From Actinomycetota bacterium (GTDB lineage: Bacteria; Actinomycetota; Actinomycetes; Actinomycetales; Microbacteriaceae), in the NCBI GenBank assembly GCA_009702455.1, contig WLIA01000010.1, positions 1 through 32,931 of the forward strand: a stretch of DNA of 32,931 nucleotides, in the 5' to 3' direction. The position numbers and the translations under genes were made by a program. Below, piece by piece: positions 2,413-25,300 of the stretch (the stretch's first letter is position 1; each line of letters opens with the position of its first letter). The notes beneath the pieces are model-generated. The model was not told the DNA's origin. It made no database searches and saw nothing but the letters and a program-made list of their open reading frames with translations.

Positions 2413-2418
2413 TAGAAT
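2413..2418 (+). promoter_or_regulatory. -10 element of the nonulosonate operon (leaderless)
   Basis: TAGAAT lies eight bases before the ATG at 2427, so transcription probably begins at or just before the A of the start codon. There is no Shine-Dalgarno sequence upstream of this ATG, which agrees with a leaderless mRNA. This is the only clear promoter seen before the packed genes that follow. Confidence 0.55.
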
Positions 2419-2426
2419 TGGGCCTT

Positions 2427-3422
2427 ATGAAGGTCTTTTTGACAGGCGCAGACGGTTTCATCGGTTCTCACCTAGCCGAGCACCTGGTTCGCAGCGGACA
2501 CGAGGTTCAAGCCCTCGCCATCTATAACTCGCAGGGTTCATGGGGTTGGCTCGACACCCTTCCAGCTGACATCAAAAAAGAGCTCAACGTGGTTCTCGGC
2601 GACATTCGCGACCCATATCACATGAACCAGCTGGTGGCCGGGCAAGACGCCGTTATGCACCTGGCGGCCCTGATCGCCATCCCGTTCAGTTATGTGGCGC
2701 CAGACATGTATGTTCAGACCAACGTTCAGGGCACCCTGAACCTCTTGAATGCGGCCAGAACCCACGGGGTTAGCCGGTTCATTCACACTTCGACCTCAGA
2801 GGTCTATGGCACCGCCCAGTATGTGCCCATGGATGAAGGCCACGTGCTTCAGGGTCAATCGCCATACTCGGCCTCGAAAATCGGTGCAGACCAGATGGTT
2901 CGCTCGTTCTATTCGTCGTTTGAGCTGCCAACCCTGACCATTCGCCCTTTCAACACCTACGGCCCGCGTCAATCGGCCCGTGCGGTGATTCCGACCATCA
3001 TTTCGCAGCTGGCCGCCGGCAAGAAGTCGATCAACCTGGGTGCTTTGACCCCGACCCGCGACTTTACATATGTCACGGATACGGCCCGTGGCTTCGAGAA
3101 GGCTCTGCATGCGAACTCGGGATTCGGCGAGGTAACCAACCTAGGCGTTGGCTTCGAGGTCTCGATTGGCCAGACCTTCGACATCATCAACGAGCTCATG
3201 GGTGCCGGGGCAGTGGCCACCGAAGACGCCAACCGCATTCGCCCGAAGAACTCAGAGGTCGAGCGCTTGTTCAGCGATAACACAAAGGCCAAGACGGTTT
3301 TGGGCTGGCAGCCAGAGATCGTTGGCATCGAAGGGTTCCGCGTTGGTCTCGAGAAGACCATCGAATGGTTCTCGAAGCCAGAGAACCTCGCACATTACCG
3401 ACCAGACGAATACACCGTCTAA
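2427..3422 (+). CDS. legB: LegB-type NAD-dependent nucleotide-sugar 4,6-dehydratase
   Basis: This is a short-chain dehydrogenase/epimerase-fold enzyme of 331 residues. It starts with the Rossmann motif GADGFIGSH (residues ~7-15), followed by the LegB-like YNSQGSWGWLD, HLAALIAIPFSY, HTSTSEVYGTAQ and the catalytic PYSASKIGADQ (YxxxK). In the known legionaminic acid route LegB converts GDP-GlcNAc to a 4-keto-6-deoxy sugar. ATG 2427 is preferred over an in-frame TTG at 2418, because the latter is inside the -10 element and the family normally begins MK-hydrophobic-TG. It is the first gene of the operon; legC follows after 12 bases. The whole downstream gene set supports the legionaminate reading over other 4,6-dehydratase roles. 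Confidence 0.88.
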   Translation: MKVFLTGADGFIGSHLAEHLVRSGHEVQALAIYNSQGSWGWLDTLPADIKKELNVVLGDIRDPYHMNQLVAGQDAVMHLAALIAIPFSYVAPDMYVQTNVQGTLNLLNAARTHGVSRFIHTSTSEVYGTAQYVPMDEGHVLQGQSPYSASKIGADQMVRSFYSSFELPTLTIRPFNTYGPRQSARAVIPTIISQLAAGKKSINLGALTPTRDFTYVTDTARGFEKALHANSGFGEVTNLGVGFEVSIGQTFDIINELMGAGAVATEDANRIRPKNSEVERLFSDNTKAKTVLGWQPEIVGIEGFRVGLEKTIEWFSKPENLAHYRPDEYTV

Positions 3423-3434
3423 GCGGGGGTTCTG

Positions 3435-4607
3435 TTGACTAACTCGCTAGCGTCAGTTTTCGTAGACCGCATTCGTGCGGTGGTCGGGCACCAATCAGAA
3501 CCGATTGGTTTGCACGTGCCCGAGATTGGCGAGCTCGAGAAGAAATACATCAACGAATGTCTCGATAGCACATTCGTTTCATCGGTCGGTGCGTTCATTC
3601 CGAAACTCGAAGAGCGAATGCAAGAGATCACCGGCGCACGTCACGCCGTGGCAGTGTCAAACGGAACCGTCGGTTTGCAAGTTGCAATGTTTCTTGCCGG
3701 TGTTGAACCGGGTGACGAAGTAATCATTCCAACGCTTTCATTCATTGCAACGGCAAACGCGGTGTCACACTGCGGTGCGCATGTCTTCTTTGTTGATTCA
3801 GAAGAATCAACTCTCGGAATGTCTGCCGAATCTTTGCGGGTCGCGCTCGCGGGTTTCACGCGCTCGGGTTCTTCGCTAGTGAATCCTTCTACCGGTCGCC
3901 GCATCGCTGCGATCGCGCCGATGCACACGCTCGGTCACCCGGTAGACATCCGTGCGATTGTGGCCGTGGCAAATGAATACGGCGTGCCGGTTGTTGAAGA
4001 TGCCGCTGAGTCGCTCGGTTCGTTTGTCGGTTCGCAGCACACCGGCACTTTTGGTCTCACCGCCATGATCTCTTTCAACGGAAACAAGATTGTCACCACG
4101 GGTGGCGGTGGCGTGATCTTGACTAACGACGAGGCCATTGGCAAGCGCGCCAAGCACATCACAACGACCGCCAAGCTCGCTCACAAGTGGGAGTTTGAGC
4201 ACGACGAGATTGCCTGGAACTACCGCATGCCCAACCTGAACGCCGCTCTGGGCATGGCGCAGCTCGACAAGTATCCGCGCTTTCTTGAGCAGAAGCGTCG
4301 CCTGGCTGGCAAGTATGCAGAGGCTTTTGCCGGGGTAGAGGGCCTATCTTTCGTGGTCGAACCGGCCGGCACCACCTCTAACTACTGGCTCTGCTCGATT
4401 CGCCTCGACGAGCCATCGCTGGCTCTTCGCGACGAACTGATGACCGCCGCACACGAGGCCGGCCTTTTGGTTCGCCCAATGTGGAACCTCTTGCACCAGC
4501 AGCGCATGTATTCGTCTGCCAGCCGAGGCGATGTTTCGGTTGCCACCGACTTGCACGCTTCGCTCATCTGTCTACCGTCGACTCCGGCTTTGGCCGAAGC
4601 GGTCTAG
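3435..4607 (+). CDS. legC: LegC-type PLP-dependent aminotransferase
   Basis: The 390-residue protein belongs to the DegT/DnrJ/EryC1 sugar aminotransferase family. Visible are the fold signature GARHAVAVSNGTVGLQ, PTLSFIATANAV, VVEDAAESLGS and the PLP-lysine region SFNGNKIVTTGGGG. In the legionaminic pathway LegC adds an amino group at C4 of the LegB product. The start is TTG at 3435, set by a GGGGG Shine-Dalgarno-like run at 3425-3429; no ATG lies near. The C-terminal half (WNYRMPNLNAALGMAQL and following) is complete. The stop is three bases before the next gene's GTG. Homologous aminotransferases (PseC, PglE) act in related pathways; the pairing with LegB and the epimerase below decides for LegC. 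Confidence 0.88.
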   Translation: MTNSLASVFVDRIRAVVGHQSEPIGLHVPEIGELEKKYINECLDSTFVSSVGAFIPKLEERMQEITGARHAVAVSNGTVGLQVAMFLAGVEPGDEVIIPTLSFIATANAVSHCGAHVFFVDSEESTLGMSAESLRVALAGFTRSGSSLVNPSTGRRIAAIAPMHTLGHPVDIRAIVAVANEYGVPVVEDAAESLGSFVGSQHTGTFGLTAMISFNGNKIVTTGGGGVILTNDEAIGKRAKHITTTAKLAHKWEFEHDEIAWNYRMPNLNAALGMAQLDKYPRFLEQKRRLAGKYAEAFAGVEGLSFVVEPAGTTSNYWLCSIRLDEPSLALRDELMTAAHEAGLLVRPMWNLLHQQRMYSSASRGDVSVATDLHASLICLPSTPALAEAV

Positions 4608-4610
4608 TCG

Positions 4611-5795
4611 GTGACCGCACGCATGTCTCGCAAAGTTGCAGTTATGACCGGCACCCGTGCCGACTTCGGATTGCTGCGACCACTTCTTCTTGAACTTGAC
4701 TCTCGCAGCGATGTGACTTTGCAGTTGATTGCAACCGGCACGCACCTGTCTGAAGCACACGGTCGCACTGTTGGCGAAATTACAGCGGCCGGTTTTTCTG
4801 TTGCCGCCGAGGTTTCGATTTGGAGTGAAGTCGCCTCAACACGCGACTCATCACTAAGCGCAGCACTCGACACCGGCAACGCGGTTGCAGAATTCTCGAA
4901 GACTCTTGCTGCGCTTCAACCAGATGTAGTTGTTGTGCTCGGCGATCGCCTAGAAGCTTTTGCGATGGCAACCGCTGCTGTGGTTTTGCAGATTCCGGTT
5001 GCTCACATTCACGGCGGCGAACTAACTCTCGGTGCCATGGATGACTCGCTGCGTCACGCAATCACCAAGCTCTCATATCTGCACTTCGCAACCACCGATG
5101 AGCACGCGGCTCGAATCGTGCGAATGGGCGAAGAACCATCGCGCGTCTTCAACTTTGGTGCACCGGTGCTCGACACTCTTTCGGGCATGCACTTCATGAC
5201 CCGCGAAGAAATCGAAGCCAAGTTTGGCGTTGTCTTCGGTGCTCGCACTGCGCTGATGACTTTTCATCCGGCGGCTTTTGACGAAGCGCCAGCGCTCGAG
5301 ATGTTCGAAGAGCTCTTGGCGGCAATCGATGAGATGCACGAGTGCCACTTCATTTTCACCGGCACCAACAACGACATCGGCAGCGACGAGGTGCGCGAGC
5401 GCATGGCTGCCTTCGTGGCTGCCCGGCCAGAGCGGGTTACCTATGTCGAATCGTTTGGCCAGCAGGGTTATCTGAGCGCAATGCACCGCGTTGACCTGGT
5501 GGTTGGCAACTCGTCTTCGACCGTGCTCGAAGCGCCGCTGCTTGGCACCCCTTCGGTCTTGGTTGGCAATCGCCAAGAGGGTCGCCCGCTGGCAGCAAGT
5601 GTTATCAAGGCTCACGCCGACCGCTCAGAGCTGCTGCAGAGCATGCGCAAGGCCATCGGGCCCGATTTTGTCGAAGAGATCGCCGGCCAGGGCGCACCTT
5701 TTGGCCAGCCAGGTTTCGCCAAGAAGGCAGCAGATGCTTTGGCATCGGCCAAGTTTGCGACACCATTGAAGAAGAAGTTCTGGGAGGGCCAGTGA
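4611..5795 (+). CDS. legG: Hydrolysing UDP/GDP-sugar 2-epimerase (NeuC/LegG)
   Basis: The 394-residue protein is of the UDP-GlcNAc 2-epimerase family, hydrolysing branch: it epimerises C2 and releases the nucleotide, giving a free 6-deoxy-diamino-mannose in the legionaminic route. Motifs include TGTRADFGLLRPLL at the N terminus, VVLGDRLEAFAMATAA, HIHGGELTLGAMDDSLRH, and the nucleotide-binding part NSSSTVLEAPLLGTPSVLVG. The start is GTG 4611 or ATG 4623; neither has a clear ribosome binding site, and both leave the GTRAD motif intact. The stop overlaps the next start as GTGA, a sign of translational coupling. Family members act on sialic acid precursors (NeuC) or Leg precursors (LegG); the neighbours favour LegG. 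Confidence 0.86.
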   Translation: MTARMSRKVAVMTGTRADFGLLRPLLLELDSRSDVTLQLIATGTHLSEAHGRTVGEITAAGFSVAAEVSIWSEVASTRDSSLSAALDTGNAVAEFSKTLAALQPDVVVVLGDRLEAFAMATAAVVLQIPVAHIHGGELTLGAMDDSLRHAITKLSYLHFATTDEHAARIVRMGEEPSRVFNFGAPVLDTLSGMHFMTREEIEAKFGVVFGARTALMTFHPAAFDEAPALEMFEELLAAIDEMHECHFIFTGTNNDIGSDEVRERMAAFVAARPERVTYVESFGQQGYLSAMHRVDLVVGNSSSTVLEAPLLGTPSVLVGNRQEGRPLAASVIKAHADRSELLQSMRKAIGPDFVEEIAGQGAPFGQPGFAKKAADALASAKFATPLKKKFWEGQ

Positions 5796-6886
5796 GCCAG
5801 AGAGTTTTGATCATCGCCGAGGCCGGGGTTAACCACAACGGCTCGCTCGAGCGTGCTCTCGAAATGGTTGAGGTGGCCAAAGACGCCGGTGCCGACATCA
5901 TCAAGTTTCAGACCTTCTCTGCCGACAAGCTAGCTCGCAAAGACGCGCAACTTGCCGAATATCAAAAGCTTGGCGACGGCGACACTCGTTCGCAGTGGGA
6001 TCTCTTGAAGGGCCTCGAGCTTTCGCACGCCGAGTTTGCGGCTATAAGAGATCACGCAAAAAAGCGCGGCATCGGTTTCTTGTCGACCGGTTTCGACCTC
6101 GACGAGCTTCAGTTTTTGATTGATGAGCTGCACATTCCGATGGTCAAGGTTGCTTCTGGCGATCTAACTTTTGCACCGATGCTTTTTGAGGCTGGGCTTT
6201 CTGGCCTGCCGGTGATTTTGTCAACCGGAATGGCGAACCTCGAAGAAATCGAGAAGTCAGTAAAGTTCATTGCCGTTGGCCTAGCGGTTTCGAGCGGAGT
6301 TTTTGAAGTGCAAACCCTGCCGACCGCTGAGAATCGTGAGCGCGCTTGGCAAGATGCGCGCGTTCAGCAAATCTTGCGCGACAAAGTGACGATTCTGCAC
6401 TGCACAACCCAATACCCGGCTGAGCTCGACATTTTGAACCTCAAGGCAATCAACGTCATTGCCGAGCGTTTCGGTTTGCCTGTCGGCTATAGCGATCACT
6501 CGAGCGGCACGCTCGCATCGGTGGTCGCAGTATCGCTCGGTGCAACCGTGATCGAAAAGCACTTCACACTTGATAAGACCATGGATGGCCCCGACCACAT
6601 GGCGTCACTCGACCCGCAAGAGTTGAAGTCACTCGTCTCGCAGATTCGCGACACCACGGTTGCTCTCGGTGAAGCGGTGAAGGAGTGCCAGCCAATCGAG
6701 GTGTCTAACCGTGCCGCGGTTCGTCGCTCGCTGGTTGCCAAGAACCCGATTGCGGCGGGTGCCGTTATTCGCGAGGCCGACCTCGAGTGCCGCCGCCCAG
6801 GTGCCGGCCGCACCAGCTTTGACTTCTATGAGGTCGTTGGCACGACCGCCGACAAAGACTATGAAGTTGGCGACTACGTTGGCTAA
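5792..6886 (+). CDS. legI: Nonulosonic acid synthase (NeuB/LegI family)
   Basis: This enzyme condenses phosphoenolpyruvate with the six-carbon amino sugar to make the nine-carbon acid. The 364 residues show the TIM-barrel NeuB signatures EAGVNHNGSLERA, DIIKFQTFSADKLA, KVASGDLTF, ILSTGMANLEEIE, LHCTTQYPAE, GLPVGYSDHSSGT and EKHFTLDKTMDGPDH, followed from about residue 305 by the C-terminal SAF (antifreeze-like) domain with RRSLVAKNPIAAGAVI and the GVGRTS-like GAGRTSFDFYEVVG. The start is GTG 5792, overlapping the previous stop by four bases, with GGGAGGG at 5782-5788 as ribosome binding site. Length and domains are complete. NeuB, LegI and PseI cannot be separated with certainty by eye; context favours LegI. 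Confidence 0.9.
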   Translation: MSQRVLIIAEAGVNHNGSLERALEMVEVAKDAGADIIKFQTFSADKLARKDAQLAEYQKLGDGDTRSQWDLLKGLELSHAEFAAIRDHAKKRGIGFLSTGFDLDELQFLIDELHIPMVKVASGDLTFAPMLFEAGLSGLPVILSTGMANLEEIEKSVKFIAVGLAVSSGVFEVQTLPTAENRERAWQDARVQQILRDKVTILHCTTQYPAELDILNLKAINVIAERFGLPVGYSDHSSGTLASVVAVSLGATVIEKHFTLDKTMDGPDHMASLDPQELKSLVSQIRDTTVALGEAVKECQPIEVSNRAAVRRSLVAKNPIAAGAVIREADLECRRPGAGRTSFDFYEVVGTTADKDYEVGDYVG

Positions 6887-6905
6887 AAACACCGCTGAGA
6901 CACCC

Positions 6906-7547
6906 ATGCTGCTGATGATCGGCGGCGGCGGTCATGCACGCGTTCTGCAAGAGGTTTTGCGTGAGGCCGGGCACGAGCTCGGCGGCTATGTTGCTCCTAG
7001 CGAAGCCGGGCTGGCGCTGGCTTCGTCTGAAGAAGTCGGTCAGCTAGAACGCATAACCGACGAACAGGCTTTAGCGCTCGACCCTGAGTCGGTGCTGCTG
7101 ATCAACGGACTTGGCTCGACAGGCGACCTATCATTGCGCGCATCGGTGTTTGAAAAATTCAAAGCCGCTGGCTTCAACTTTTTGCAGACCTCAGCGCAGA
7201 CCGCATACGTGAGTGAGAGTGCGAGTTTGCTCGAGGGTGTGCAAGTTATGCACAAGGCGGTTGTAAACCCGACTGCGCTGCTTTACGAAAACGTGATTGT
7301 TAACACCGGTGCAATTGTTGAACACAACAACGTGATCGGTGCACACAGTCACGTTTCAATTGGCGCGGTGTTAGCCGGAAACGTAACCGTTGGCGAGCGC
7401 ACTCACATTGGTGCAAACGCAACAATTTTGCAGGGCGTAAAAATCGGCTCGAACTGTATCATTGGCGCAGGCGCGGTAGTTCTCAACGACGTGTCAGACG
7501 GTCATGTTGCCATCGGTGTTCCGGCAGTTGCAAAGAAGAGAGGCTAA
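6906..7547 (+). CDS. NeuD/PglD-family hexapeptide acetyltransferase (LegH role)
   Basis: From ATG 6906 the protein is 213 residues, the usual size for NeuD/PglD sugar acetyltransferases. It opens with MLLMIGGGGHARVLQEVL, matching the family's N-terminal IIGxGGHA motif, and ends in a left-handed beta-helix domain of hexapeptide repeats (NTGAIVEHNNVIGAHSHVSI, NVTVGERTHIGANATIL, IIGAGAVVLNDV). In the legionaminic pathway the LegH acetyltransferase N-acetylates the amino group made by LegC; this is the only candidate in the cluster. Start choice is open: a TTG at 6879 would overlap the synthase stop, and an ATG at 6861 lies further up, but the family start fits 6906 best. Alternatively it may O-acetylate the finished sugar as NeuD does. 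Confidence 0.85.
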   Translation: MLLMIGGGGHARVLQEVLREAGHELGGYVAPSEAGLALASSEEVGQLERITDEQALALDPESVLLINGLGSTGDLSLRASVFEKFKAAGFNFLQTSAQTAYVSESASLLEGVQVMHKAVVNPTALLYENVIVNTGAIVEHNNVIGAHSHVSIGAVLAGNVTVGERTHIGANATILQGVKIGSNCIIGAGAVVLNDVSDGHVAIGVPAVAKKRG

Positions 7548-7549
7548 TC

Positions 7550-8605
7550 GTGATTACCGATTTGAAGTCACTCACAGTTTCTAAAGACGCAACACTTTTG
7601 CAAACCATCGAGGCCATCAACGTTGGTGCAAAGCAGATTGCACTCGTTGTCGACGAAAACTCAAAACTACTCGGCACTGTTACCGACGGCGACGTTCGCC
7701 GCGGCTTGCTTCGCGGTCTTGCGCTCGACGCATCTGTTTCAGAAGTGATGAACAAAACTCCTCACGTTGCCTCGCCTGAAGAAGACCCGCAAGAAGTTAT
7801 GGCGCGCGAATTCTCGAAGTCGATTCACCAGCTGCCGGTAATTGACGCCAGTGGCAAGCTCATCGGCCTGCTGACCGATCAAGACATGTTGGTTGCCGCC
7901 GAAATCTCGACCCCGGTTGTGCTCATGGCTGGTGGCAAGGGCGTTCGTCTGTTTCCGCTAACCAAAGATGTGCCAAAGCCGATGCTCAAGATTGGCGACC
8001 AGCCAATTATCGAAATCATTCTGCGCAAACTGCACGCACAGGGCTTCAGAAACATCTACATCTCGGTGAACTATCTGGCCGAGGTTATCCGTGATCACGT
8101 CAACGATGGAGATTGGCTCGGCCTCAAGGTCACCTACCTCGAAGAGGCTCAGCCGCTTGGCACCGCGGGTGCTCTGGCCCAGCTGGCAGGCAAAATCGGC
8201 GAACCGTTTGTGGTCATGAACAGCGACCTGCTCACCAACTGCGACCTGCGCCAGGTGGTCAAGTTTCACAAAAAGCAGTCGGCCAAGGCCACCCTCGGAG
8301 TGCGCGAATACAGCTTTCAGGTGCCTTATGGCGTTGTGAACATCGACGGCAACGAGGTCGAGTCGATCAGCGAAAAGCCGGTGCACCGCTCGATGGTATC
8401 TGCCGGCATCTATGTTCTCGACCCGTCTGCGCTAGGGCTGATTCCCACGGATGAGTTCTGCGACATGCCAACACTTCTCGACAGCATCAAGTCGCAGGGG
8501 CAGAAAGTCGTGGCGTTTCCGATTCACGAATCTTGGCTCGACATCGGTCGTCACGACGACCTCGCCGAAGCTCGCAACAACCTCGACCACTGGCTCGACT
8601 ACTAG
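7550..8605 (+). CDS. ptmE: CBS-domain sugar-1-phosphate nucleotidyltransferase (PtmE-like)
   Basis: The 351-residue protein fuses two N-terminal CBS repeats (about residues 1-120, with LGTVTDGDVRRGLLRG and IGLLTDQDMLV) to a nucleotidyltransferase domain starting at about 124 with VLMAGGKGVRLFPLT and KPMLKIGDQPIIE. The architecture matches Campylobacter PtmE, the glucosamine-1-phosphate guanylyltransferase that feeds GDP-sugars into legionaminic acid synthesis. The substrate here is inferred from that match and the linkage to legB. The CBS pair, which usually binds adenine nucleotides, suggests allosteric control. The start is GTG 7550 with AAGAGAGG at 7536-7543 as ribosome binding site, two bases after the previous stop. 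Confidence 0.85.
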   Translation: MITDLKSLTVSKDATLLQTIEAINVGAKQIALVVDENSKLLGTVTDGDVRRGLLRGLALDASVSEVMNKTPHVASPEEDPQEVMAREFSKSIHQLPVIDASGKLIGLLTDQDMLVAAEISTPVVLMAGGKGVRLFPLTKDVPKPMLKIGDQPIIEIILRKLHAQGFRNIYISVNYLAEVIRDHVNDGDWLGLKVTYLEEAQPLGTAGALAQLAGKIGEPFVVMNSDLLTNCDLRQVVKFHKKQSAKATLGVREYSFQVPYGVVNIDGNEVESISEKPVHRSMVSAGIYVLDPSALGLIPTDEFCDMPTLLDSIKSQGQKVVAFPIHESWLDIGRHDDLAEARNNLDHWLDY

Positions 8606-8612
8606 GAGAAAC

Positions 8613-9314
8613 ATGTTTCTTCGCGATCACGTATACGCAATCGTTCCGGCACGCGGCGGCTCGAAGGGTCTGCCCGGCAAGAACCTGCTCAAAATCGGTG
8701 GCAAGACTCTCATCGAGCGCGCAATCGAAAGCGCACGCGACTGCTTGTATGTCGATGCACCACTTGTTTCGAGCGACGACGACGCGATTCTCGATGAAGC
8801 GCTGCGCCTCGGAGTTATCAACCACCGCCGCGACGAGTTTGCATCGCAAGACGATTCGACTGCCGGCGATGTCATCCGTGATTTCTTGCACGCAACCGAC
8901 GTCGAAATCGACCCGAGCGTTGACCCGTGGATTGTCTATCTGCAGCCAACTTCGCCAGCGCGCACTGCCGACATGGTTGAGGCCGCGTTTGATGTTTTGT
9001 CTGAGCACCAGCCGCACGCAAAGTCTTTGGTTTCTGTCACCCACCCGCCGAAGTCGCCATACTGGACACTCACGGTTGGTGTTGATGGGCGACTGCACCC
9101 GTTGTTTCCTGAGGTTTATGGATTGAATCGTCAGCAAAACGACGAAGCGTTTATGCCTAACGGCGCGATCTACATTTTCAAGCTCTCGGAGTTTTTGAAG
9201 ACCGGCAAGTTTCCGATTGATGGTGCGGTGCCGTTCTTCATGTCGGCAGAAGACAGCATCGACATCGACACTCTCGAAGATTTTGAACGAGCGAAAGCCT
9301 CGCTCGAGCGATAA
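8613..9314 (+). CDS. legF: CMP-nonulosonic acid synthetase (LegF/NeuA)
   Basis: A cytidylyltransferase of 233 residues that activates the nine-carbon acid with CTP to give the CMP-sugar donor. The N-terminal nucleotide-binding motif is AIVPARGGSKGLPGKN, followed by TLIERAIESA, VSSDDDAILDEA, IVYLQPTSPART and AFMPNGAIYIF, all typical of NeuA/LegF/PseF. The ATG at 8613 follows AGGAG at 8604-8608, part of which overlaps the upstream stop codon; a longer in-frame extension upstream is not needed and would overlap ptmE. LegF, NeuA and KdsB-like enzymes share this fold; the cluster suggests CMP-legionaminic acid as product. Confidence 0.9.
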   Translation: MFLRDHVYAIVPARGGSKGLPGKNLLKIGGKTLIERAIESARDCLYVDAPLVSSDDDAILDEALRLGVINHRRDEFASQDDSTAGDVIRDFLHATDVEIDPSVDPWIVYLQPTSPARTADMVEAAFDVLSEHQPHAKSLVSVTHPPKSPYWTLTVGVDGRLHPLFPEVYGLNRQQNDEAFMPNGAIYIFKLSEFLKTGKFPIDGAVPFFMSAEDSIDIDTLEDFERAKASLER

Positions 9315-9316
9315 CG

Positions 9317-10666
9317 ATGAATTTAGAACAGATTTGGTCTGCGCTTCGAAAAGTTGAGAAAGCCGAAGACCTGGCAACCTGGCGGGTTGGCGATGTTTAT
9401 CTCTGGCAGGTAATTCGTGAGCGCATGTTCACCCACATTGCCGAGCAAACAGGTCTCTATCTGGCTGTGCCAGAGAAGCCAGAGATCAAGCCGGCAAAGC
9501 AGGCCTCGCTTCAAGCCGCCGAGATTGCGGTTATGCCCTTCGTGCGCCGCGATGCCCAGGGCCGTGACCCCTTCACCGAACCGTTCGTTAGGGCCGCCGA
9601 CAGCGTGCTGGTCTTCGGCATTGGCAGCGAAGATGAGGGCACTGGCAAGCCGCAGTATGAGCAGCTCGATGCCATGCTGCTCGCCCAATATCGCACCAGG
9701 GCCAAGCTCAAGGTGGTCTTCTGGCAGGCCAAGAAGCACAAGCAAAAGTGGGCCAGGGTCATTGCCTCACTCGAGAGCGATCTTTCGGTAAACCTCGACA
9801 AATACCGCAAGTTTCCGCGTTGGCTGCTGGTCGATTTCGTTGCTCGCCGCATCGGCTGGACCAAACTCTTCAAGCTCGCCGAAACCGAACTTCTTCTTAT
9901 TGCCAACGCGTGGCAACTCTGGATGGTGGCCGGCGCTAAAGCTGCCGGTGTTCGCGTTGTTGAAATTCAGCACGGATTAATCTCGGCTTATCACTCACGC
10001 TTGAGCTGGTCAGACTTCAAGGGTGACAGTGCTGCATCTGGCGCATATCTCGCGCACGAGTTTTGGCAGTGGGGCGACTTCTGGGGTTTTGCAAGTGACA
10101 TTCCGGCTTCGGTTGAACTGCACACAATCGGTGCACCAGAAGCAATCACTGCGGCAATCGCGCGCGACACAAAAAAGAAGCAGCAGCTTCTTGTAATTGG
10201 TCAGCCGCAGGTTTCGCAAAGTTTGATTGAGTTCGCGCGTTTCATCGCGGCGAAGTATTCGAAGTTGCCGGTTGTGCTCAAGCCGCACCCGCAAGAAAAC
10301 CTTGAGCAAATCGAAGCCGCAATCGATGCGCTCGGCGCAAGACCGGCAAACCTAACCGTTTCTGCCGTTGACGCAAACACCATCGAGCTAATCGAAGAAT
10401 CTGAATATGTGATCGGCGTTTATTCGACCGCCATGTTTGAAGCAGTTGCGCTCGGCTGCAAAGTTGGCGTGCTCAAACTCGCGGGCTACAACCACATCGA
10501 GCCGCTGATTCACTCAGGCGCTATCCAAGAGATCAATCGCGTTGCAGACATAGAGAAGTTCTTTGTGACCGCGAAACAGAATCGCAACTCGGCCAGCTAT
10601 TTTGCAAAGCAGGTGCCTGCGCGAATTCTGCTCGACGGCGCTCTTGCGAGAATCGAAGACCAGTGA
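9317..10666 (+). CDS. Putative nonulosonic acid transferase, paralog 1 (unrecognised family)
   Basis: I do not recognise the 449-residue family with certainty. The N-terminal ~60 residues carry a W-x-V-G-D-V-Y-L-W-x-V-I-R-x-R-M-F motif; a middle signature reads KFPRWLLVDFVARRIG. The C-terminal half looks like a GT-B glycosyltransferase or capsule-synthesis fold: EIQHG (Q218-H219-G220), LKPHPQEN (H324-P325), and GVYSTAMFEAVALG (S370-T371, E375). HP and Ser/Thr motifs of this kind are known from bacterial sialyl- and polysialyltransferases, which use CMP-sugars. No signal peptide or membrane segment is seen, so it is probably cytoplasmic. It follows legF by two bases and overlaps its own paralog as GTGA. 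Transfer of CMP-legionaminic acid is inference from motifs plus position. Confidence 0.7.
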   Translation: MNLEQIWSALRKVEKAEDLATWRVGDVYLWQVIRERMFTHIAEQTGLYLAVPEKPEIKPAKQASLQAAEIAVMPFVRRDAQGRDPFTEPFVRAADSVLVFGIGSEDEGTGKPQYEQLDAMLLAQYRTRAKLKVVFWQAKKHKQKWARVIASLESDLSVNLDKYRKFPRWLLVDFVARRIGWTKLFKLAETELLLIANAWQLWMVAGAKAAGVRVVEIQHGLISAYHSRLSWSDFKGDSAASGAYLAHEFWQWGDFWGFASDIPASVELHTIGAPEAITAAIARDTKKKQQLLVIGQPQVSQSLIEFARFIAAKYSKLPVVLKPHPQENLEQIEAAIDALGARPANLTVSAVDANTIELIEESEYVIGVYSTAMFEAVALGCKVGVLKLAGYNHIEPLIHSGAIQEINRVADIEKFFVTAKQNRNSASYFAKQVPARILLDGALARIEDQ

Positions 10667-12090
10667 CCGCCAGCAGCCTAGAAGAGATTGGCGAGGCATT
10701 CTTCGAGATCGAGCGTCGCGAGAACCTTTATGACTGGAAGGTCGGTGGCATAAGCGTTTGGGTTTTGCTGCGATCGCGCCTGTTTCGCACCATCACCCAG
10801 AGTGCCAACCTCTACGATTGGGGCACCGCCAAGAAGTTCGAGTTGCCGGCCGATTCGGTGCACTACGCCGGTGCCAACGCTGCCGAGCTGCTCTGGGCGG
10901 CTGCCAATGGCCGGGCCAAAGCGCCCAAAAGCGCTGCCGAGCCAGACTTTCGCAACCTAAAGGGCGTGAAAGCGCTCGTGGTTCCTTTTGCTACCCGCAG
11001 CGCCGAAAACCCGCTAATCGAAAAATTTAGTCAGCCGGTTATCGATGCCCTTGGCGCTGACGCCTTGGTCTTCGGGGTTGGCCAATGGGACAAACTCTCT
11101 AACCGCCCCCGCCTCGAAGATCTCAACGAGATTTTCATCAAGAAATACGGCACCTATGCCAGCATCTTTGTTCGCTTGGCGCTGAGCAAGCGCGACTATG
11201 CGAAGTACCAGCGCGTGGTCAAATACATCGAGCGCGAGGTTGGCATTTCGATGGCTCCTTACGATGTGTTTCCGCGTTGGCTGCTGCGCACCTTCGTTGC
11301 CGAACGCCGCGGCTACCGCAAAGTTCTAGCCGCGACTTCTGCCAAGACTGTTTATATGGTCAACGCCGCTCGCATGCCATTTCAGGCGGCTGCCCAAAGC
11401 TTGGGCATGAAGATCGTTGAGATTCAAAGCGGAGTCTTCTCGAAGTACTCGCTGCAGTTGAGCTGGCCAGGCTCACCTTCGGTCGACTACCTGCCGAATG
11501 AGATTCTCACCTGGGGTGAATACTTCACCGACGGCATCGAGCATGCCGCGAATCAGAAGATAAGTGTGATTGGTTCAACCGACGAGTTCAACGTGGTTCG
11601 CGATGCAAACCTGAAGCGCGATTCAAAGCAGGTTGTCTTTCTAACGCAGCCGCTAGTTGGCAACGACATCTTGGCTGCAGCAATCGAGTTCGCTCGCATC
11701 AAGCCCAATTTGAACGTGATTGTCAAAATGCATCCGCGCAATGATCTCGAAGAGTTCACTCGAATCATCGAGGCCGCAGGTGGTTCGCCAAAGAACCTGT
11801 CGCTAATGCAAAGCCAGCGCAGCTCTCTCGAAGTCATCGCCGAAAGCGAAGTTGCGGTTGGTGCATTCTCAACCGCGCTTATTGAGGCCGCTGGGCTTGG
11901 CACCAAGGTAGCCATTCTGCGCTTGCCCGGCTGGCAGCACTTGGCACCGCTGGTTGAAGGTGGCTATGCAAGCGCGTTCGATAACGCTCAAGATTTAGCG
12001 ACAAACTTCGAAAACCTTCGCGTTGCAGGCGATAAGTACTTCTTCTACGGGCCTAAGGCCGACATCGCTTCGCTTGTTCGCCTAGGGTAG
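10663..12090 (+). CDS. Putative nonulosonic acid transferase, paralog 2 (unrecognised family)
   Basis: This 475-residue protein is a diverged tandem copy of the preceding one. It shares the N-terminal motif (NLYDWKVGGISVWVLLRSRLF begins near residue 21), VFPRWLLRTFVAERRG in the middle, EIQSG (S256 where paralog 1 has His219), VKMHPRND (H357-P358), and GAFSTALIEAAGLG (S403-T404, E408), followed by LPGWQHLAPLVEGG against LAGYNHIEPLIHSG in paralog 1. The loss of the His in the QHG motif suggests the two copies differ in acceptor, linkage or activity. The start is GTG 10663, inside the previous stop. Function is inferred only from motifs and operon position. Confidence 0.68.
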   Translation: MTASSLEEIGEAFFEIERRENLYDWKVGGISVWVLLRSRLFRTITQSANLYDWGTAKKFELPADSVHYAGANAAELLWAAANGRAKAPKSAAEPDFRNLKGVKALVVPFATRSAENPLIEKFSQPVIDALGADALVFGVGQWDKLSNRPRLEDLNEIFIKKYGTYASIFVRLALSKRDYAKYQRVVKYIEREVGISMAPYDVFPRWLLRTFVAERRGYRKVLAATSAKTVYMVNAARMPFQAAAQSLGMKIVEIQSGVFSKYSLQLSWPGSPSVDYLPNEILTWGEYFTDGIEHAANQKISVIGSTDEFNVVRDANLKRDSKQVVFLTQPLVGNDILAAAIEFARIKPNLNVIVKMHPRNDLEEFTRIIEAAGGSPKNLSLMQSQRSSLEVIAESEVAVGAFSTALIEAAGLGTKVAILRLPGWQHLAPLVEGGYASAFDNAQDLATNFENLRVAGDKYFFYGPKADIASLVRLG

Positions 12091-12095
12091 AAGGC

Positions 12096-12962
12096 GTGTC
12101 GCGCAAAGGTCTAATTCTCTTCATCGCATGCGGAATCGCATGGGGAATGCCTTATGCATTCATCAGCATTGCGGTTGAGCAGTTCGATGTAGCGACTATT
12201 GTTTTGGCGCGTTGCCTAATTGGTGCCGCCGTGCTCATCCCGTTTGCCATCTATCGCAAAGCCATCATGCCTGCGCTCAAGCACTGGCGTTGGGTTCTGG
12301 TTTTCGCGCTGTTAGAGATGGTTGGCCCGTGGTTTCTCATCACCAACGCTGAACGCACGATCTCGAGCGGTCTCACCGGGCTGCTCATTGCCATCGTGCC
12401 GTTCTGGGGCGTATTCATCGCCTACTACTTTCTCGGCGACAAGTCGGTCAAGCACCCGAAAACTATTTTCGGATTGATAATCGGCTTCGCCGGCGTTCTT
12501 CTGCTGGTCGGTGTCGATGCCTTCAGCGCGAATCTCGATCTGCTCGGTGTTGGTGCGGTCATTCTTGCTTCACTCGGATACGCCATCGCGCCGGCGGTTA
12601 GCTCGCGAACCATCGGGCACCTCGACAGTGTTGGCGTCATCGCGCTTTCGATGGGTTTTGTCTCGGTCATCTATGCGATTCCCGGATTCATCGCGTTGCC
12701 AGCGTCGATTCCAACCGCCAAGTTTGATGGCTGGATGGCGCTGATTGTTTTGGGTGTCGTCTGCAGCGCCATCGCGTTCATTCTGTTCTTCGATCTGATC
12801 AAAGAAATCGGCTCGGCTCGAGCTACGCTGATCACCTACCCGAACACCGCCGTGGCCTTCTTGCTCGGCATTGTCTTTCTCTCAGAACCGATTACTCTGG
12901 GAATGATTCTTGGGTTCCCGCTGGTTCTAATAGGGTCATACTTCGCCTCAAAGAGGCACTAA
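12096..12962 (+). CDS. EamA/DMT-family membrane transporter
   Basis: A 288-residue protein with about ten hydrophobic helices in two similar halves, as in the drug/metabolite transporter superfamily. Typical features are the N-terminal CGIAWGMPYAFISIA, the first-half end SSGLTGLLIAIVPFWGVFIAYYFLG and its second-half echo ARATLITYPNTAVAFLLGIVFLSEPIT. The start is GTG 12096, five bases after the upstream stop, with AGGG at 12084-12087 as possible ribosome binding site. Such proteins export small metabolites or move lipid-linked sugars. Its place at the end of the nonulosonate operon makes a role in moving a sugar, lipid or precursor possible, but DMT genes are common and the link may be accidental. 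Confidence 0.85.
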   Translation: MSRKGLILFIACGIAWGMPYAFISIAVEQFDVATIVLARCLIGAAVLIPFAIYRKAIMPALKHWRWVLVFALLEMVGPWFLITNAERTISSGLTGLLIAIVPFWGVFIAYYFLGDKSVKHPKTIFGLIIGFAGVLLLVGVDAFSANLDLLGVGAVILASLGYAIAPAVSSRTIGHLDSVGVIALSMGFVSVIYAIPGFIALPASIPTAKFDGWMALIVLGVVCSAIAFILFFDLIKEIGSARATLITYPNTAVAFLLGIVFLSEPITLGMILGFPLVLIGSYFASKRH

Positions 12963-12974
12963 AGAAAGCACAAA

Positions 12975-13550
12975 ATGCAGAAAACCGCCATCACTTCAGC
13001 CGAAATTGCACCAGTTCTAGCCAACCGCTGGAGCCCACGCGCATACGACGTGAACCACACCGCGAGTCAGCACGAACTGCTCTCAATTCTCGAAGCTGGC
13101 CGCTGGGCTCCTTCGGCCAACAACGCGCAACCATGGCGTTTCTCGATTGCCACTCGCGGCAGCGAACTCTTCGACCAGATTGTCGGTGCGTTCACAGGTT
13201 TCAACCAGTCTTGGGCACCTAACGCTTCTGCACTGTTGGTTATTTCGGTGCTCAACCAGAAGGCAGATGGAACACCTTATCCGGGTGCACTTCTCGACGC
13301 CGGCCTCGCCGCACAGAACATGATGATTCAAACCGAAGAACTCGGATTAGCCGCGCACCCAATCGGTGGCATGGTGCACGACGAGATGCGCAAGGTGCTC
13401 GACTTAGCAGACAACCTTGACCCAATCATGGCGATGACAATCGGCAAGCGTGCCGATGCATCTGTTCTCGAGGGTCCGGCCTACGAGCGCGAGGTTGCAC
13501 CGCGCGTTCGCCTCGAACTCGATGAAATTGTTTTGCACGGCAAGCCATAA
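12975..13550 (+). CDS. Nitroreductase-family flavoprotein
   Basis: The 191-residue protein matches the FMN-dependent nitroreductase family: NRWSPRAYD near the N terminus, SILEAGRWAPSANNAQPWRFSIATRG (FMN-binding arginine and SxNxQPW), a central LLDAGLAAQNMMIQTEELGLAAHPIGG, and MAMTIGKRAD near the end. Members reduce nitro compounds, quinones or unsaturated carbonyls with NAD(P)H; the substrate here cannot be told. The ATG at 12975 has only a weak AGAAAG upstream. It lies 12 bases after the transporter and 6 bases before the DedA gene, so it may still be cotranscribed with the operon before it. Confidence 0.88.
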   Translation: MQKTAITSAEIAPVLANRWSPRAYDVNHTASQHELLSILEAGRWAPSANNAQPWRFSIATRGSELFDQIVGAFTGFNQSWAPNASALLVISVLNQKADGTPYPGALLDAGLAAQNMMIQTEELGLAAHPIGGMVHDEMRKVLDLADNLDPIMAMTIGKRADASVLEGPAYEREVAPRVRLELDEIVLHGKP

Positions 13551-18635: not shown

Positions 18636-18662
18636 AGAGGTTTGCTCCCCAACAAACCGCAT

Positions 18663-18698
18663 GCATATTTTGGCTGCGCCTTTGACGCATATTTTGGC
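18663..18698 (+). repeat. 12-base direct repeat in the rpoB leader
   Basis: GCATATTTTGGC occurs at 18663-18674 and again at 18687-18698, exactly 24 bases apart. The second copy is also the loop and 3' arm of a TGACGC / GCGTCA hairpin (18683-18702) followed by a T run at 18707-18711. The 247-base gap before rpoB otherwise holds only the promoters. Confidence 0.5.
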
Positions 18699-18709
18699 GT
18701 CAGTAGTTT
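18682..18709 (+). promoter_or_regulatory. Candidate rpoB promoter P2
   Basis: TTGACG (18682-18687), a 16-base spacer and TAGTTT (18704-18709). It would start transcripts about 45 bases before the TTG start of rpoB. It overlaps the direct repeat and hairpin, so only one of these readings may be real. Confidence 0.4.
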
Positions 18710-18759
18710 TTGGGTCGCGATTCCAACCACTCAGATCTAGTTCCTTGGAGGGACATCTC

Positions 18760-21700
18760 TTGGCATCGGCGAAGAAGACTAAAAACACACGTTCAACAAA
18801 GCGCCTCTCATTTGCAAAGGTCACGGAAGCTCTCGATGTTCCAGACCTACTCATGCTGCAGACCGAAAGCTTCGACTGGCTAATCGGTAACCCTGCATGG
18901 AAGGCAAAGAACCCAGGCGCAAAGAATGGCCTCGAAGAAATCTTTGCTGAGATTTCTCCGATCGTTGACTCGGCAAACCCAGCTCAGGCTCCGAAGATGG
19001 GAATCAGCTTCGACAAGCCAGAGCTATACGACCCTGAATACACTCCTGACGAGTGCAAGGTTAAGGGCCGCAGCTACACCCAGCCTCTTTACATCAAGGC
19101 AGAGTTCACCAACTACGAAACCGGTGAGATCAAGTCTCAGACCGTTTTCATGGGCGACTTTCCTGTGATGACCGAGAAGGGCACCTTCGTAATTAACGGA
19201 ACCGAGCGCGTTGTTGTTTCGCAGCTTGTTCGTTCACCTGGTGTCTACTTCTCACAGACAACCAACACAACCGGAAACCTTGACGTGCGCAACATCCGTG
19301 CACAGATCATTCCAAGCCGTGGTTCATACCTTGAGTTCTTGACCGAGTGGGTCAAAGAAGAGCGCAAGCCAATGGCACGTTACGGAAAGCCGATTGTTCA
19401 GGTTCAGGTTGACCGCAAGACCAAAGTGTCTGCAACCATTTTCTTGAAGGCTCTCGGTCTTAGCGAAGATGAAATTCGCGCAGAGTTCGCAGACATCAAG
19501 GATGCAGTTGCGAAGAACGCGAAGGCATGGACCATCGACGTTGACCTAATCGAGAACACTCTCGAGTATGACAAGTCGAAGGCATACGCAACCAACAACA
19601 TCATCAGCAAAGAAGACGCACTTCGCGAGCTATACCGCAAGGTTCGCAGCGAAGCGGCCGGACCGGAAGTTGCAGAAGCATGGTTGAAGTCAACCTACTT
19701 CGACACCAAGCGTTACAACCTCGCGAAGGTTGGCCGTCACAAGCTAAACCGCAAGCTAGGCCTAGACGTTGCTGGCGACAAGAACACCCTGATGATCGAA
19801 GACATCGTTGCGACCATCAAGTACCTATTGGTCTTCGACCTCAGCCAGGCACCACAGAACGGCAACCTTGCTACCCCAATTGACCTAGTCATGGGCGGCA
19901 AGAAGTCGGCTGTAACCATCTCGTCTGACGACATCGATGACTTCTCAAACCGTCGAATTCGCTCGGTTGGCGAACTAATTCAGAACCAGGTTCGCATCGG
20001 TCTAAGCCGCATGGAGCGCGTTGTTCGTGAGCGCATGTCGACTCAAGACATCGAAGCAATTACTCCGATGACTTTGATCAACTTGCGTCCGGTTGTTTCG
20101 GCAATCAAGGAGTTCTTCGGAGCTTCGCAGTTGTCACAGTTCATGGATCAGAACAACCCACTGGCAGGATTGGCTCACAAGCGTCGCTTGTCAGCCCTTG
20201 GCCCAGGCGGTATCGCTCGTGAGCGTGCACAGATGGAAGTTCGTGACGTTCACCCTTCTCACTACGGACGCATGTGTCCTGTTGAAACTCCTGAAGGTCC
20301 GAACATTGGTCTAATCGGTTCGTTGACTGCGTTCGCACGCATCAACGCATTCGGTTTCATCGAGACTCCTTACTTCAAGGTCACCAATTCAAAAGTTGCA
20401 AAGGGTGCACCTGACTACCTAGACGCAGCATCAGAAGCCGGCAAGATTATTGCTCCTGCTGATGTTCCGCTAAACGCAGACCGCACTTTTGCAAATGCAA
20501 AGGTATTCGCGCGCTTCAAGGGTGAGGTTGTTGAAGTAGACGCAGCCGATGTTGACTACGTTGACATTTCACCTCGTCAGCTCGCTTCTGTTTCAACGTC
20601 GTTGATTCCGTTCCTCGAGCACGACGACTCAACCCGTGCGCTAATGGGTGCAAACATGCAGCGTCAGGCAGTTCCACTGCTACGCAGCGTTGCACCTCTA
20701 GTTGGCACAGGCATGGAGCGCGTTGCAGCGATCGACTCTGGCGCAGCAGTTATCAACGAGACCTCTGGTGTTGTTGAAGAAGTTGCAGCAGACAAGATTG
20801 TCATCAAGCAGGATGCCGGCGGCACGAAGTCATACGTTCTTCGCAAGTTCGACCGCTCAAACCAGGGCACCGCAATCAACCAGCGCGCAATCGTCTCGGT
20901 TGGCCAGAAGGTTGATGCCGGAGAAGTTCTTGCAGACGGTCCAGCTACCGAAAACGGCGAGCTCGCACTCGGAAAAGACCTGCTCGTGGCATTCATGCCA
21001 TGGGAAGGCCACAACTTCGAAGACGCGATCATCATCAGCCAGAACCTGGTGAAAGACGACACCCTCAGCTCGATTCACATCGAGGAGTACGAGGTTGAAG
21101 CTCGCGACACCAAGCTAGGTAAAGAAGAGATCACCGCCGACCTACCGAACATCTCGGCAGAGGCTTTGGCTCAGCTTGACGAGCGCGGCATCATTCGCAT
21201 CGGTGCAGAGGTTCGCCCAGGCGACATCCTTGTTGGAAAAGTAACCCCTAAGGGTGAAACCGAGCTAACCCCAGAAGAGCGCCTACTTCGCGCAATCTTC
21301 AACGAGAAGAGCCGCGAAGTTCGCGACACCTCTTTGAAGGTGCCGCACGGCGAGCAGGGAACCATCATCGGCGTCAAGGTATTTGACATCGACGAGGGCG
21401 ACGACGAGCTAGGTGCCGGTGTAAACCAGCGCGTAGTGATTCACATCGCTCAGAAGCGCAAGATTACCGAGGGTGACAAGCTTGCTGGTCGCCACGGTAA
21501 CAAGGGTGTTATCTCGAAGATTCTTCCGGTTGAAGACATGCCATTCCTCGAGGATGGAACTCCGGTTGACATCGTGTTGAACCCGCTAGGTATCCCTGGC
21601 CGTATGAACTTCGGTCAGATTCTCGAGCTACACCTCGGATGGATCGCCAAGCAGGGTTGGGATGTTAAAGACGGTGCAAAGTGGGCCGCCAACCTCGTTG

Positions 21701-22365
21701 ACGAAATGCGTCACGGCGAGCCAGGTACCCCTGTTGCAACTCCAGTCTTCGACGGCGCATCGAAAGATGAGATCGCCGGTCTTCTCGAGTCGACCCGTCC
21801 GAACAAGGATGGCCAGCACCTCGTGAAGAAGTCGGGTAAGGCGCGTCTATTCGACGGTCGCTCAGGCGAGCCATACCCAGAAGATATCTCGGTCGGTTAC
21901 ATGTACATCTTGAAGTTGCACCACTTGGTCGACGACAAGATTCACGCACGTTCAACCGGTCCTTACTCAATGATCACTCAGCAGCCACTCGGTGGTAAGG
22001 CGCAGTTCGGTGGACAGCGCTTTGGTGAGATGGAAGTTTGGGCTCTTCAGGCTTACGGTGCAGCACACACTCTTCAAGAGTTGCTCACCATTAAGTCAGA
22101 CGACATCAACGGTCGTATCAAGACCTACGATGCAATCGTCAAGGGTCAGAACATCCAGGCTCCTGGTATTCCAGAGTCGTTCCGAGTTCTTACAAAAGAA
22201 ATGCAGTCTCTCGCACTAAACGTTGAGGTTCTCAACGCGAAGGGTGAAGCAGTCAACTTGATGGAGGAAGACTTCGAAGCAGATCGCACTGCAGAAGACC
22301 TCGGCATCAACTTGTCTCGCAACGAGGCACTTTCGGCTGACAACGACTCACCTACTTACTACTAA
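18760..22365 (+). CDS. rpoB: RNA polymerase subunit beta
   Basis: The 1201-residue protein is the beta subunit of RNA polymerase. Diagnostic stretches are [15 protein letters not shown] near the N terminus, [19 protein letters not shown], the rifampicin region [13 protein letters not shown]...[32 protein letters not shown], and the C-terminal [19 protein letters not shown]. The start is TTG 18760, chosen because GGAGGGA (18747-18753) lies six bases upstream; the frame is open to 18661 without another signal. The rifampicin pocket keeps the key Asp, His and Ser (516, 526, 531 in E. coli numbering) but has Ala at positions 522 and 525. It is slightly longer than usual in Actinobacteria, mainly through additions in the N-terminal lobes. 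rpoC follows after 26 bases. Confidence 0.97.
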
Positions 22366-22391
22366 AGAGAATCTGGACTTAAGGAAAAATC

Positions 22392-25300
22392 ATGGATGTT
22401 GAACTATTCGACTCACTCCGCGTTGGTCTAGCTACCGACACTGAGATTCGCGCATGGTCAAAGGGTGAAGTAAAGAAGCCTGAGACCATCAACTACCGCA
22501 CCCTGAAGCCAGAAAAGGATGGCCTTTTCTGCGAGAAGATCTTTGGCCCGACCAAAGACTGGGAGTGTGCCTGTGGAAAGTACAAGCGCGTTCGCTTCAA
22601 GGGAATCGTTTGTGAGCGTTGCCAGGTTGAGGTAACCAAGTCATCAGTTCGTCGTGAGCGCATGGGTCACATCGAACTAGCTGCACCGGTTACTCACATC
22701 TGGTACTTCAAGGGTGTTCCTTCACGCTTGGGCTACCTGCTCGACGTTGCACCAAAAGACCTAGAGAAGATCATCTACTTCGCTGCTTACCGCGTTATGT
22801 CACTCGAGAGTGCTGACCCCAAGGGCAACGTAATTGTTGACTCACTTCACAAGGGCGAATACATCGACCGCATCACCACCTTGTTGCGCGAGCGCGAGGC
22901 AGAGATGCTCGAGGTTGCTCAAGAAGAGCACGACGCTCTTGAGGCCTTTGGTCTAAAGCTCTACCCGGCTACCAACCTATGGGAGCAGCCAACCTGGCTA
23001 GACCCTCAGTTCAGCCGCACCTTCGAGAAGATTCTTGCTTGGGAAATCAACGAGGCTAAGAAAGAAAACCCATTCGGCAAAAAGGGTTCAGAAGAGATCA
23101 ACTCTGACGAGGCTCCTGTCGTTCGCGATGCAGCCGACGAGAAGAAGATCAAGCAGCTCATCTCAGAGTTCAAGAAGAAGACCGACAAGATCGTGCGCGA
23201 GTATGCACGCATCGAGCGTTCATCGAACTTGCATAAAGAGCAGCTCGCGTGGCGTCTATACATCACCGCTAAGAAGAGCAAGCCAATTCAGAACGATGCA
23301 ATCTTCGATTACTTCGACTACTGGTATGGAGATGCAGTTGAGACCGCAATCGGTGCAGAAGCAGTTCTTCGTGAACTTGCAGCATTCGATTTGCAACTTG
23401 CAGCTGACAAGTTGAAGTATCAAATTACATTTGGCAACACTCCTAACAATTTTTCGAACTTTACTAGAGAAGAGTTCGAAGAATTTGTAAAGAAACAATC
23501 TAAGAGAACCCAAGAGGAAATTGCCTCGGACCGCTCAAAAGGTGGTGCAAAGCAGACTCAGGCAATCAAGCGCCTGAAGGTTGTCAACTCTTTCATCGCT
23601 TCAGGAACCAACCCAACTTCTATGGTCCTCAACGTTCTTCCGGTTCTTCCGCCAGAAATTCGTCCGATGGTTCAGCTAGACGGTGGCCGCTTTGCGACCT
23701 CTGACCTAAACGACCTTTACCGTCGCGTGATTAACCGCAACAACCGTTTGAAGCGTTTCGTTGATCTAGGTGCTGTTCCAAAGACCATCTTGAACAATGA
23801 GAAGCGCATGCTTCAAGAAGCGGTTGACGCACTATTCGACAACGGTCGCCGTGGTCGCCCAGTTACCGGAACCGGTAACCGCCCACTGAAGTCACTGTCT
23901 GACCTACTTAAGGGCAAGCAGGGTCGTTTCCGTCAGAACCTTCTCGGTAAGCGCGTTGACTACTCGGGTCGTTCGGTTATCGTCGTTGGTCCGCAGTTGA
24001 AGCTGCACCAGTGTGGTCTGCCAAAGCAGATGGCACTCGAGCTCTTCAAGCCTTTCGTAATGAAGCGTCTTGTCGACCTGGGCCTTGCTCAGAACATCAA
24101 GAGCGCAAAGCGCAAGGTCGAGCGTTCACACGCAGAGGTCTGGGATGTTCTAGAAGAAGTTATTCGCGAGCGTCCGGTTCTGCTAAACCGTGCACCTACC
24201 CTTCACCGTCTAGGCATCCAGGCTTTCGAGCCGCTGCTAGTTGAAGGCAAGGCAATCCAGCTACACCCGCTCGTATGTACAGCTTTCAACGCTGACTTCG
24301 ATGGTGACCAGATGGCTGTTCACCTACCGCTATCGGTTGAGGCTCAGGCCGAGGCACGTGTTTTGATGCTTGCTTCGAACAACATCTTGAAGCCGTCTGA
24401 CGGTCGTCCGGTTGCTGTTCCTACCCAGGACATGATCATTGGTCTTTACCACCTAACCGGTGAAAAAGACGGTGCAATTGGTGAGGGCATGGCGTTCGGT
24501 TCAATCGCTGAGGCCATATTGGCTTACGACATGCTGAACAAGACCACCAAGACCGGTCTTGACCTTCAGGCCAAGATTCGCATTCGCATCGCTGGCGAGC
24601 TAAAGACCACGACTCTCGGTAGAGCCCTATTCAGCGAAGCCATGCCAGATGGTTTTGAATACAAAAAGTATCTTCAGAAAGGCTCAACGAAAAAGAACAA
24701 TATTGAACAAATCGGCAAGAAAGAACTTGAGTCGATTATCACCGGACTCGTTGGTTCTCAGCCGAAAACTGAAGTTGCGCAAACTTTGGATCGACTGAAA
24801 GACCTAGGTTTCTACTGGGCCACTCGTTCGGGTGTCTCGATGGCAATCTCAGATGTGAACTTCGACGCTAACGGCCAGTTCGACAAAGAGCGTGAAGCGC
24901 TAATTGTTAAGGGCGAGAAGGAGCACACCAAGATTCAAGAGAAGTTCGACCTCGGTGGAATTTCAGAATCAGAGCGTGTTGACAAGCTCGGTGAACTTTG
25001 GAACGACTACACCAAGCAGATTGCAACTCTTCTAGAGAGCTCGCTACCTAAAGACAACGCAATCTACAAGATGGTTACCTCGAAGGCTCGTGGAAACTGG
25101 ATTCAGATTCGTTCGATCATGGGTATGCGTGGCCCGGTGACTAAGTCATCAGGTGAGTTTGCTGCTATGCCTGTCAAGGGAAACTACCTAATCGGTCTCA
25201 CCGCTAACGAGTACTTCGTTAACGCGACCGGTGCACGTAAGGGTAACGCTGACACCGCGATGAAGACTGCGGCTGCCGGTTACCTAACCCGTCGTCTAGT

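Follow-up and report, generated by a model that had tools for sequence, protein, structure and literature searches.

How does a bacterium with the genes to make CMP-legionaminic acid attach that sugar to its surface? Legionaminic acid is a bacterial cousin of sialic acid, and the question is raised by 32,931 nucleotides of DNA, here called the window, from a member of the Microbacteriaceae (assembly GCA_009702455.1, contig WLIA01000010.1). The genome amounts to 1.29 Mb in 77 contigs, and the window is its contig C2. Seven leg genes (legB, legC, legG, legI, legH, legE and legF) fill positions 2418–9314, a complete CMP-legionaminic acid gene set. Directly behind them come two genes, P1 and P2, whose products probably carry out this attachment of legionaminic acid. 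The explanation we favour, and consider reasonably probable, is that together they are the transfer step of the cassette, P1 being the putative transferase and P2 its altered partner. Table 1 collects the features.

Table 1. Genes of the leg cassette, the two paralogs and their motifs, in window coordinates.
Feature	Position	Strand	Evidence or remark
legB, 4,6-dehydratase	2418..3422	+	TIGR04180, 462.7 bits, slightly below cut-off of 475
legC, aminotransferase	3435..4607	+	TIGR04181, above cut-off
legG, NeuC-type 2-epimerase	4611..5795	+	TIGR03568, above cut-off
legI, NeuB-type synthase	5792..6886	+	TIGR03569, 401.7 bits, above cut-off; PF03102
legH, NeuD-type acetyltransferase	6711..7547	+	TIGR03570
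legE/ptmE-like, nucleotidyltransferase with two CBS domains	7550..8605	+	PF00571, PF00483
legF, CMP-sugar synthetase	8613..9314	+	PF02348; nearest NCBIfam PseF, 100 bits, under cut-off
P1, putative CMP-legionaminic acid transferase of GT-B type bearing E-x-Q-H-G, 449 aa	9317..10666	+	
P1 EIQHG, residues 216-220	9962..9976	+	His219, proposed general base
P1 KPHP, residues 322-325	10280..10291	+	Proposed CMP-binding motif; motif role from PMC12887879
P1 STAMFE, residues 370-375	10424..10441	+	Ser/Thr motif
P2, paralog with E-x-Q-S-G, 475 aa	10663..12090	+	GTG start
P2 EIQSG, residues 253-257	11419..11433	+	His replaced
P2 KMHP, residues 355-358	11725..11736	+	Proposed CMP-binding motif
P2 STALIE, residues 403-408	11869..11886	+	Ser/Thr motif

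The original prediction, made from the DNA letters and their translations, had the pair directly following legF, and so it does: legF ends two bases ahead of P1. Its start we infer to be the ATG at 8613, within an ORF of 8451–9314. In the legH ORF the domain begins at residue 67, and the true start of the gene probably lies downstream of the one listed. The cassette is flanked by nucS (10–558) and an EamA–nitroreductase pair (12096–13550). The nucS–EamA gap is only ~2.4 kb in the NulO-negative genome G014, as it is in G001 and G015, and in G030 a different, single-copy nonulosonate cassette lies immediately upstream of the same EamA gene (loci compared: L093, L095, L096 and L051). The interval has the appearance of a hot spot at which cassettes can be swapped. 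Elsewhere in the window, a 583-aa ORF on the reverse strand (569–2320) has no Pfam match at E 1e-5, and its C-terminal end is weakly similar to histidine kinases. RpoB (1234 aa) and RpoC (1479 aa), at 18661–26831, both seem long; their domain matches leave space for insertions, the match to RpoC domain 1 spanning 512 residues against a 312-position profile.

P1 and P2 had been described as tandem paralogs with a set of common motifs, a description that stands in full. They are 30% identical over 458 columns, near full length (212 bits, E 8e-68), and both carry W-x-V-G...W-x-x-x-R-x-R, FPRWLL, EIQxG, HP and STAxxEA. Among 23 P1 and P2 sequences, KxHP is found in 22, the remaining one reading RxHP, and position 370 is Ser or Thr in every one. 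The two ORFs overlap by four bases; this overlap is near-constant across loci and suggests that P2 is co-translated with P1.

What kind of proteins are these? AlphaFold2 gave models with pLDDT 90.7 and pTM 0.89 for P1, and 92.0 and 0.90 for P2, and we predict with high confidence that both are GT-B glycosyltransferases with two Rossmann-like domains. The original prediction had staked itself beforehand on a fold of this type. Over about 300 residues the models fit MurG, NeuC-type epimerases, TarL and WaaA with Z ~14 to 17, and P2 superposes on the polysialyltransferase 5wcn (Z 14.4, rmsd 4.2, 284 residues) in a tie with other GT-B folds; the Z values lie so near one another that the fold indicates GT-B and not a particular family. 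The matches listed for the P1 structure include no GT38, GT52 or GT80 entry, which does not imply that these families are excluded.

One of the structural neighbours invites another reading. TarL (8va1) superposes on P1 with Z 16.1 and rmsd 4.4 over 300 residues, and the TagB/TagF/TarL family has a similar layout of HG and HP motifs, so P1 and P2 might be CDP-glycerol or CDP-ribitol (polyol-phosphate) transferases that merely adjoin the leg genes. We regard this as very improbable: none of 30 family members matches the CDP-glycerol transferase Pfam family at E 0.01, and the strict linkage to nonulosonate genes described below speaks against it as well. Less remote, and still distinctly unlikely, is that P1 and P2 work with some other nucleotide sugar, their task being to make the acceptor and not to add legionaminic acid to it. 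The top Foldseek and VIA matches listed are, after all, mostly UDP- or TDP-using enzymes that share the GT-B fold, UDP-sugar users prevailing. There is also a precedent in SpsB, a putative transferase adjoining the legionaminic acid pathway of Bacillus subtilis, which is dispensable for legionaminic acid transfer there (PMC7439481); unlike P1 and P2, SpsB carries a TagB domain. Weighing against acceptor building, the leg cassette holds no transferase besides P1 and P2, no Maf-type transferase (PF01973) was found in the eight leg-type genomes and the isolate MWH-Ta3 that were searched, and it is mainly in their CMP-binding half that the proteins resemble GT38.

The resemblance to GT38 is distant. 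The pair had been called an unrecognised family, which is nearly right: P1 falls under every Pfam and NCBIfam cut-off (15.5 bits for the polysialyltransferase family PF07388), and P2 barely clears that of PF07388 (23.6 bits against 23.3). Of 30 family members, six reach E 0.01 or better against PF07388. When a 30-member profile was compared with solved structures, the best match was the GT38 polysialyltransferase SiaD (5wcn/5wc6, E 1.5e-4), running through the stretch that bears KxHP and the Ser-Thr motif. Profile–profile comparison of actinobacterial PF07388 proteins with the C-terminal halves gave E 1.3e-6 for the P1-type profile and 8.6e-5 for P2. With the Mannheimia SiaD (5wcn), P1 and P2 thus have in common the GT-B fold, KxHP-x-E, the Ser-Thr motifs and a significant C-terminal-half profile match. 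They differ in their N-terminal region, in being two paralogs where GT38 is one enzyme, and in having QHG (P1) or QSG (P2) instead of the D/E-D/E-G motif described for GT38 (PMC6388019). Global profile alignment with GT38 is unreliable in the N-terminal half, and the replacement of the acidic motif by QHG is only an analogy. The sialyltransferase likeness in the original prediction stands for the HP and Ser/Thr motifs, which GT38 has too, and fails for GT52: neither protein matches PF07922 at E 1 or better. A GT52 search of the genomes left even its controls unrecovered and is hence uninformative.

Other known systems are no closer. Tannerella forsythia GtfS (Tanf_01245) and TFUB4_00887 are transferases of pseudaminic acid (Pse) and legionaminic acid (Leg), assigned by knock-out (PMC6388019, PMC6120980). 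Compared by description, they resemble P1 and P2 as ~440-aa GT-B-type proteins with an HP motif encoded beside CMP-Pse or CMP-Leg genes; what sets them apart, again by description only, is that each is a single gene with a reported D/E-D/E-G. Two NCBIfam families give weak C-terminal-half matches far under their cut-offs, namely NF046086, the BFO_1060 glycosyltransferase (18 of 30 members; 24 against 200 bits), and TIGR04396, a surface carbohydrate protein (12 of 30; 27.9 against 125 bits). The retaining Kdo and Pse transferases GT99, GT107, GT140 and GT118 are GT-B-related and use a CMP donor, as P1 and P2 would. (K/R)xHP is present in GT99/107 and is a CMP-binding motif common to sialyltransferases and retaining Kdo transferases, the retaining group having in addition a QXXXD nucleophile motif (PMC12887879). 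QXXXD is a feature of GT99/107/140 that P1 and P2 lack: Q296 is conserved, and the residue four positions on is Ser, Thr or Ala in P1 and Gly or Ala in P2. The presence of (K/R)xHP and the absence of QXXXD make inversion, as in sialyltransferases, the likelier mechanism. P1 and P2 are probably a barely recognised branch of sialyltransferase-like enzymes.

A mechanism can be sketched on this footing. The C-terminal domain would use (K/R)xHP and the Ser/Thr motif to hold the CMP part of the donor, CMP-legionaminic acid, while His219 of P1, in a loop after an N-domain strand, would activate the acceptor hydroxyl; the acceptor itself would be made outside the leg cassette. His219 is likely the best candidate for the base of P1, by analogy, since the N-terminal halves cannot be aligned reliably with GT38; the invariant Glu216 is the alternative.

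It is at this histidine that the two paralogs part company. The original prediction had noticed EIQHG in one and EIQSG in the other and suspected a split in function. The split in sequence is real, and it is old. E-x-x-H-G, with its His, is found in 11 of 11 P1 sequences, in all five of the single-copy (type-B) homologs and in all four distant members, whereas of the 12 P2 sequences nine have Ser in place of the His, two Cys and one Asn, so the split is not peculiar to this genome. Two further residues behave in the same way: His226 is missing from 12 of 12 P2 and Glu327 is replaced by Asn or Asp. All three are kept in most His-type homologs and replaced in every P2. In a 39-row tree P1 forms one clade (support 98/96), P2 another (100/100) and the single-copy type a third; the separate clades of P1 and P2 point to an old tandem duplication inherited as a pair.

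We considered whether P2 might be a decaying copy and rejected the idea, the altered loop being its most conserved part. The 20-residue window from EIQSG ranks first of 456 for conservation in P2 (its equivalent in P1 ranks 32 of 430), and over its full length P2 is no less conserved than P1. The loop must be strongly constrained, and P2 is best seen as a functional, specialised partner. With its donor-side motifs kept, P2 would be a second transferase whose catalysis or acceptor differs, or else a non-catalytic binding subunit; each is a version of the explanation we favour. That both proteins are active legionaminic acid transferases working in sequence, for example as initiator and elongase, as the original prediction had it when it suggested two residues or two linkages added in order, is a possibility we take seriously while rating it below even: KxHP, Ser403 and Glu408 are each retained in 12 of 12 P2, the Glu at 216 in P1 and 253 in P2 is kept in both, and the conservation of P2 and of its loop counts in favour. 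It has to contend with the replacement of His219, His226 and Glu327 in all P2, and P2 would then need a different base, for which the invariant Glu253 is a candidate. The case for P2 as a donor- or acceptor-binding subunit in complex with P1 consists of the loss of the putative base from every P2, the near-constant four-base overlap, the constant company of P1 in readable loci and the extra, incomplete N-terminal domain that P2 carries in two genomes; full retention of the donor-side motif argues the other way, and we think this version somewhat unlikely. The fused orthologs, in G008 and G020, are 731 aa long (L043:7741-9933, reverse strand, and L045:8395-10587, forward strand). In them ~258 extra N-terminal residues of the family N domain precede a full P2, and the extra copy stops near the strand preceding the E-x-Q-x-G motif. 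A stronger proposal would make P1 and P2 the two components of an obligate legionaminic acid transferase and assign them to a new CAZy family; P2 would be the subunit without the catalytic His and with a remodelled, strongly constrained active-site loop. We put this forward tentatively, as rather doubtful.

The linkage of the family to nonulosonate genes also speaks for P1 and P2 as the transfer step. A genus-level sample of 36 genomes comprised 12 with the family, three with NeuB and no family member, and 21 without NeuB. NeuB is in 12 of 12 family-positive genomes and the family in 0 of 21 NeuB-negative ones (hypergeometric p 3.6e-7, which ignores relatedness and, the genomes being related, is optimistic). 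As for the three with NeuB alone, the contig of G028 ends inside legF, and G003 and G013 have other NeuB types with other neighbours. In G002 and G032, NeuB is on a separate contig and the neighbour read was a CMP-synthetase. Homologs are rare beyond the genus (6 of 296 other genomes in an order sample, 3 of 395 in a phylum sample), and in each readable locus from these samples nonulosonate genes lie no more than about 10 kb from the homolog. Overall, the neighbourhood survey that the original prediction called for found nonulosonate genes beside homologs in 23 of 23 readable loci, the named loci L077-L079 included; G704, L069 and L076, on contigs too short to read, are not among the 23. The close homologs at the named loci belong to freshwater Microbacteriaceae MAGs and isolate MWH-Ta3, which makes a planktonic member of the family Microbacteriaceae the most likely source of the window. 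Searches with P1 alone in the genome contigs collection and with a P1+P2 alignment in viral contigs returned no relatives; a P2-only alignment search did recover some.

Is the family specific for legionaminic acid? Leg-type loci bear the P1+P2 pair. In other genomes of the genus a lone family gene adjoins a divergent NeuB and a protein fused from cytidylyltransferase and PseG-like parts; at L046, L050 and L051 this CMP-sugar synthetase/PseG-like hydrolase is 540-557 aa long and the arrangement resembles Bacillus spsEFG. Single-copy homologs also occur in pseudaminate-type clusters. In family f12, proteins of about 1150-1300 aa join a GT4-type domain to the domain of the P1/P2 family at their C-terminal end; a NeuB-family gene lies next to them and in G290 scores as PseI above cut-off. 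These fusions (L052-L056), sometimes two in tandem, have Tyr-Ala at the His-Gly site and lack the Lys of KxHP; they are possibly bifunctional cell-wall polymer synthases. Given the single-copy and f12 settings, the family is linked to nonulosonates generally. Of the original call of legionaminic acid transferases, then, the nonulosonate linkage survives and strict specificity goes unsupported. Nor is the pair generally required, since single-copy homologs of other taxa are found in leg-like clusters too (L057, L067).

We are left with a well-supported candidate for a CMP-nonulosonate transferase family, distantly akin to GT38, whose two paralogs are set apart in an unusual and conserved way. 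Beyond the Tannerella enzymes and the Maf proteins of flagella, few legionaminic acid transferases are known. If a family accompanies nonulosonate clusters throughout Actinobacteria, it would supply concrete, assayable candidates and aid the annotation of genes now labelled hypothetical, and the pair would allow division of labour in a duplicated glycosyltransferase to be tested.
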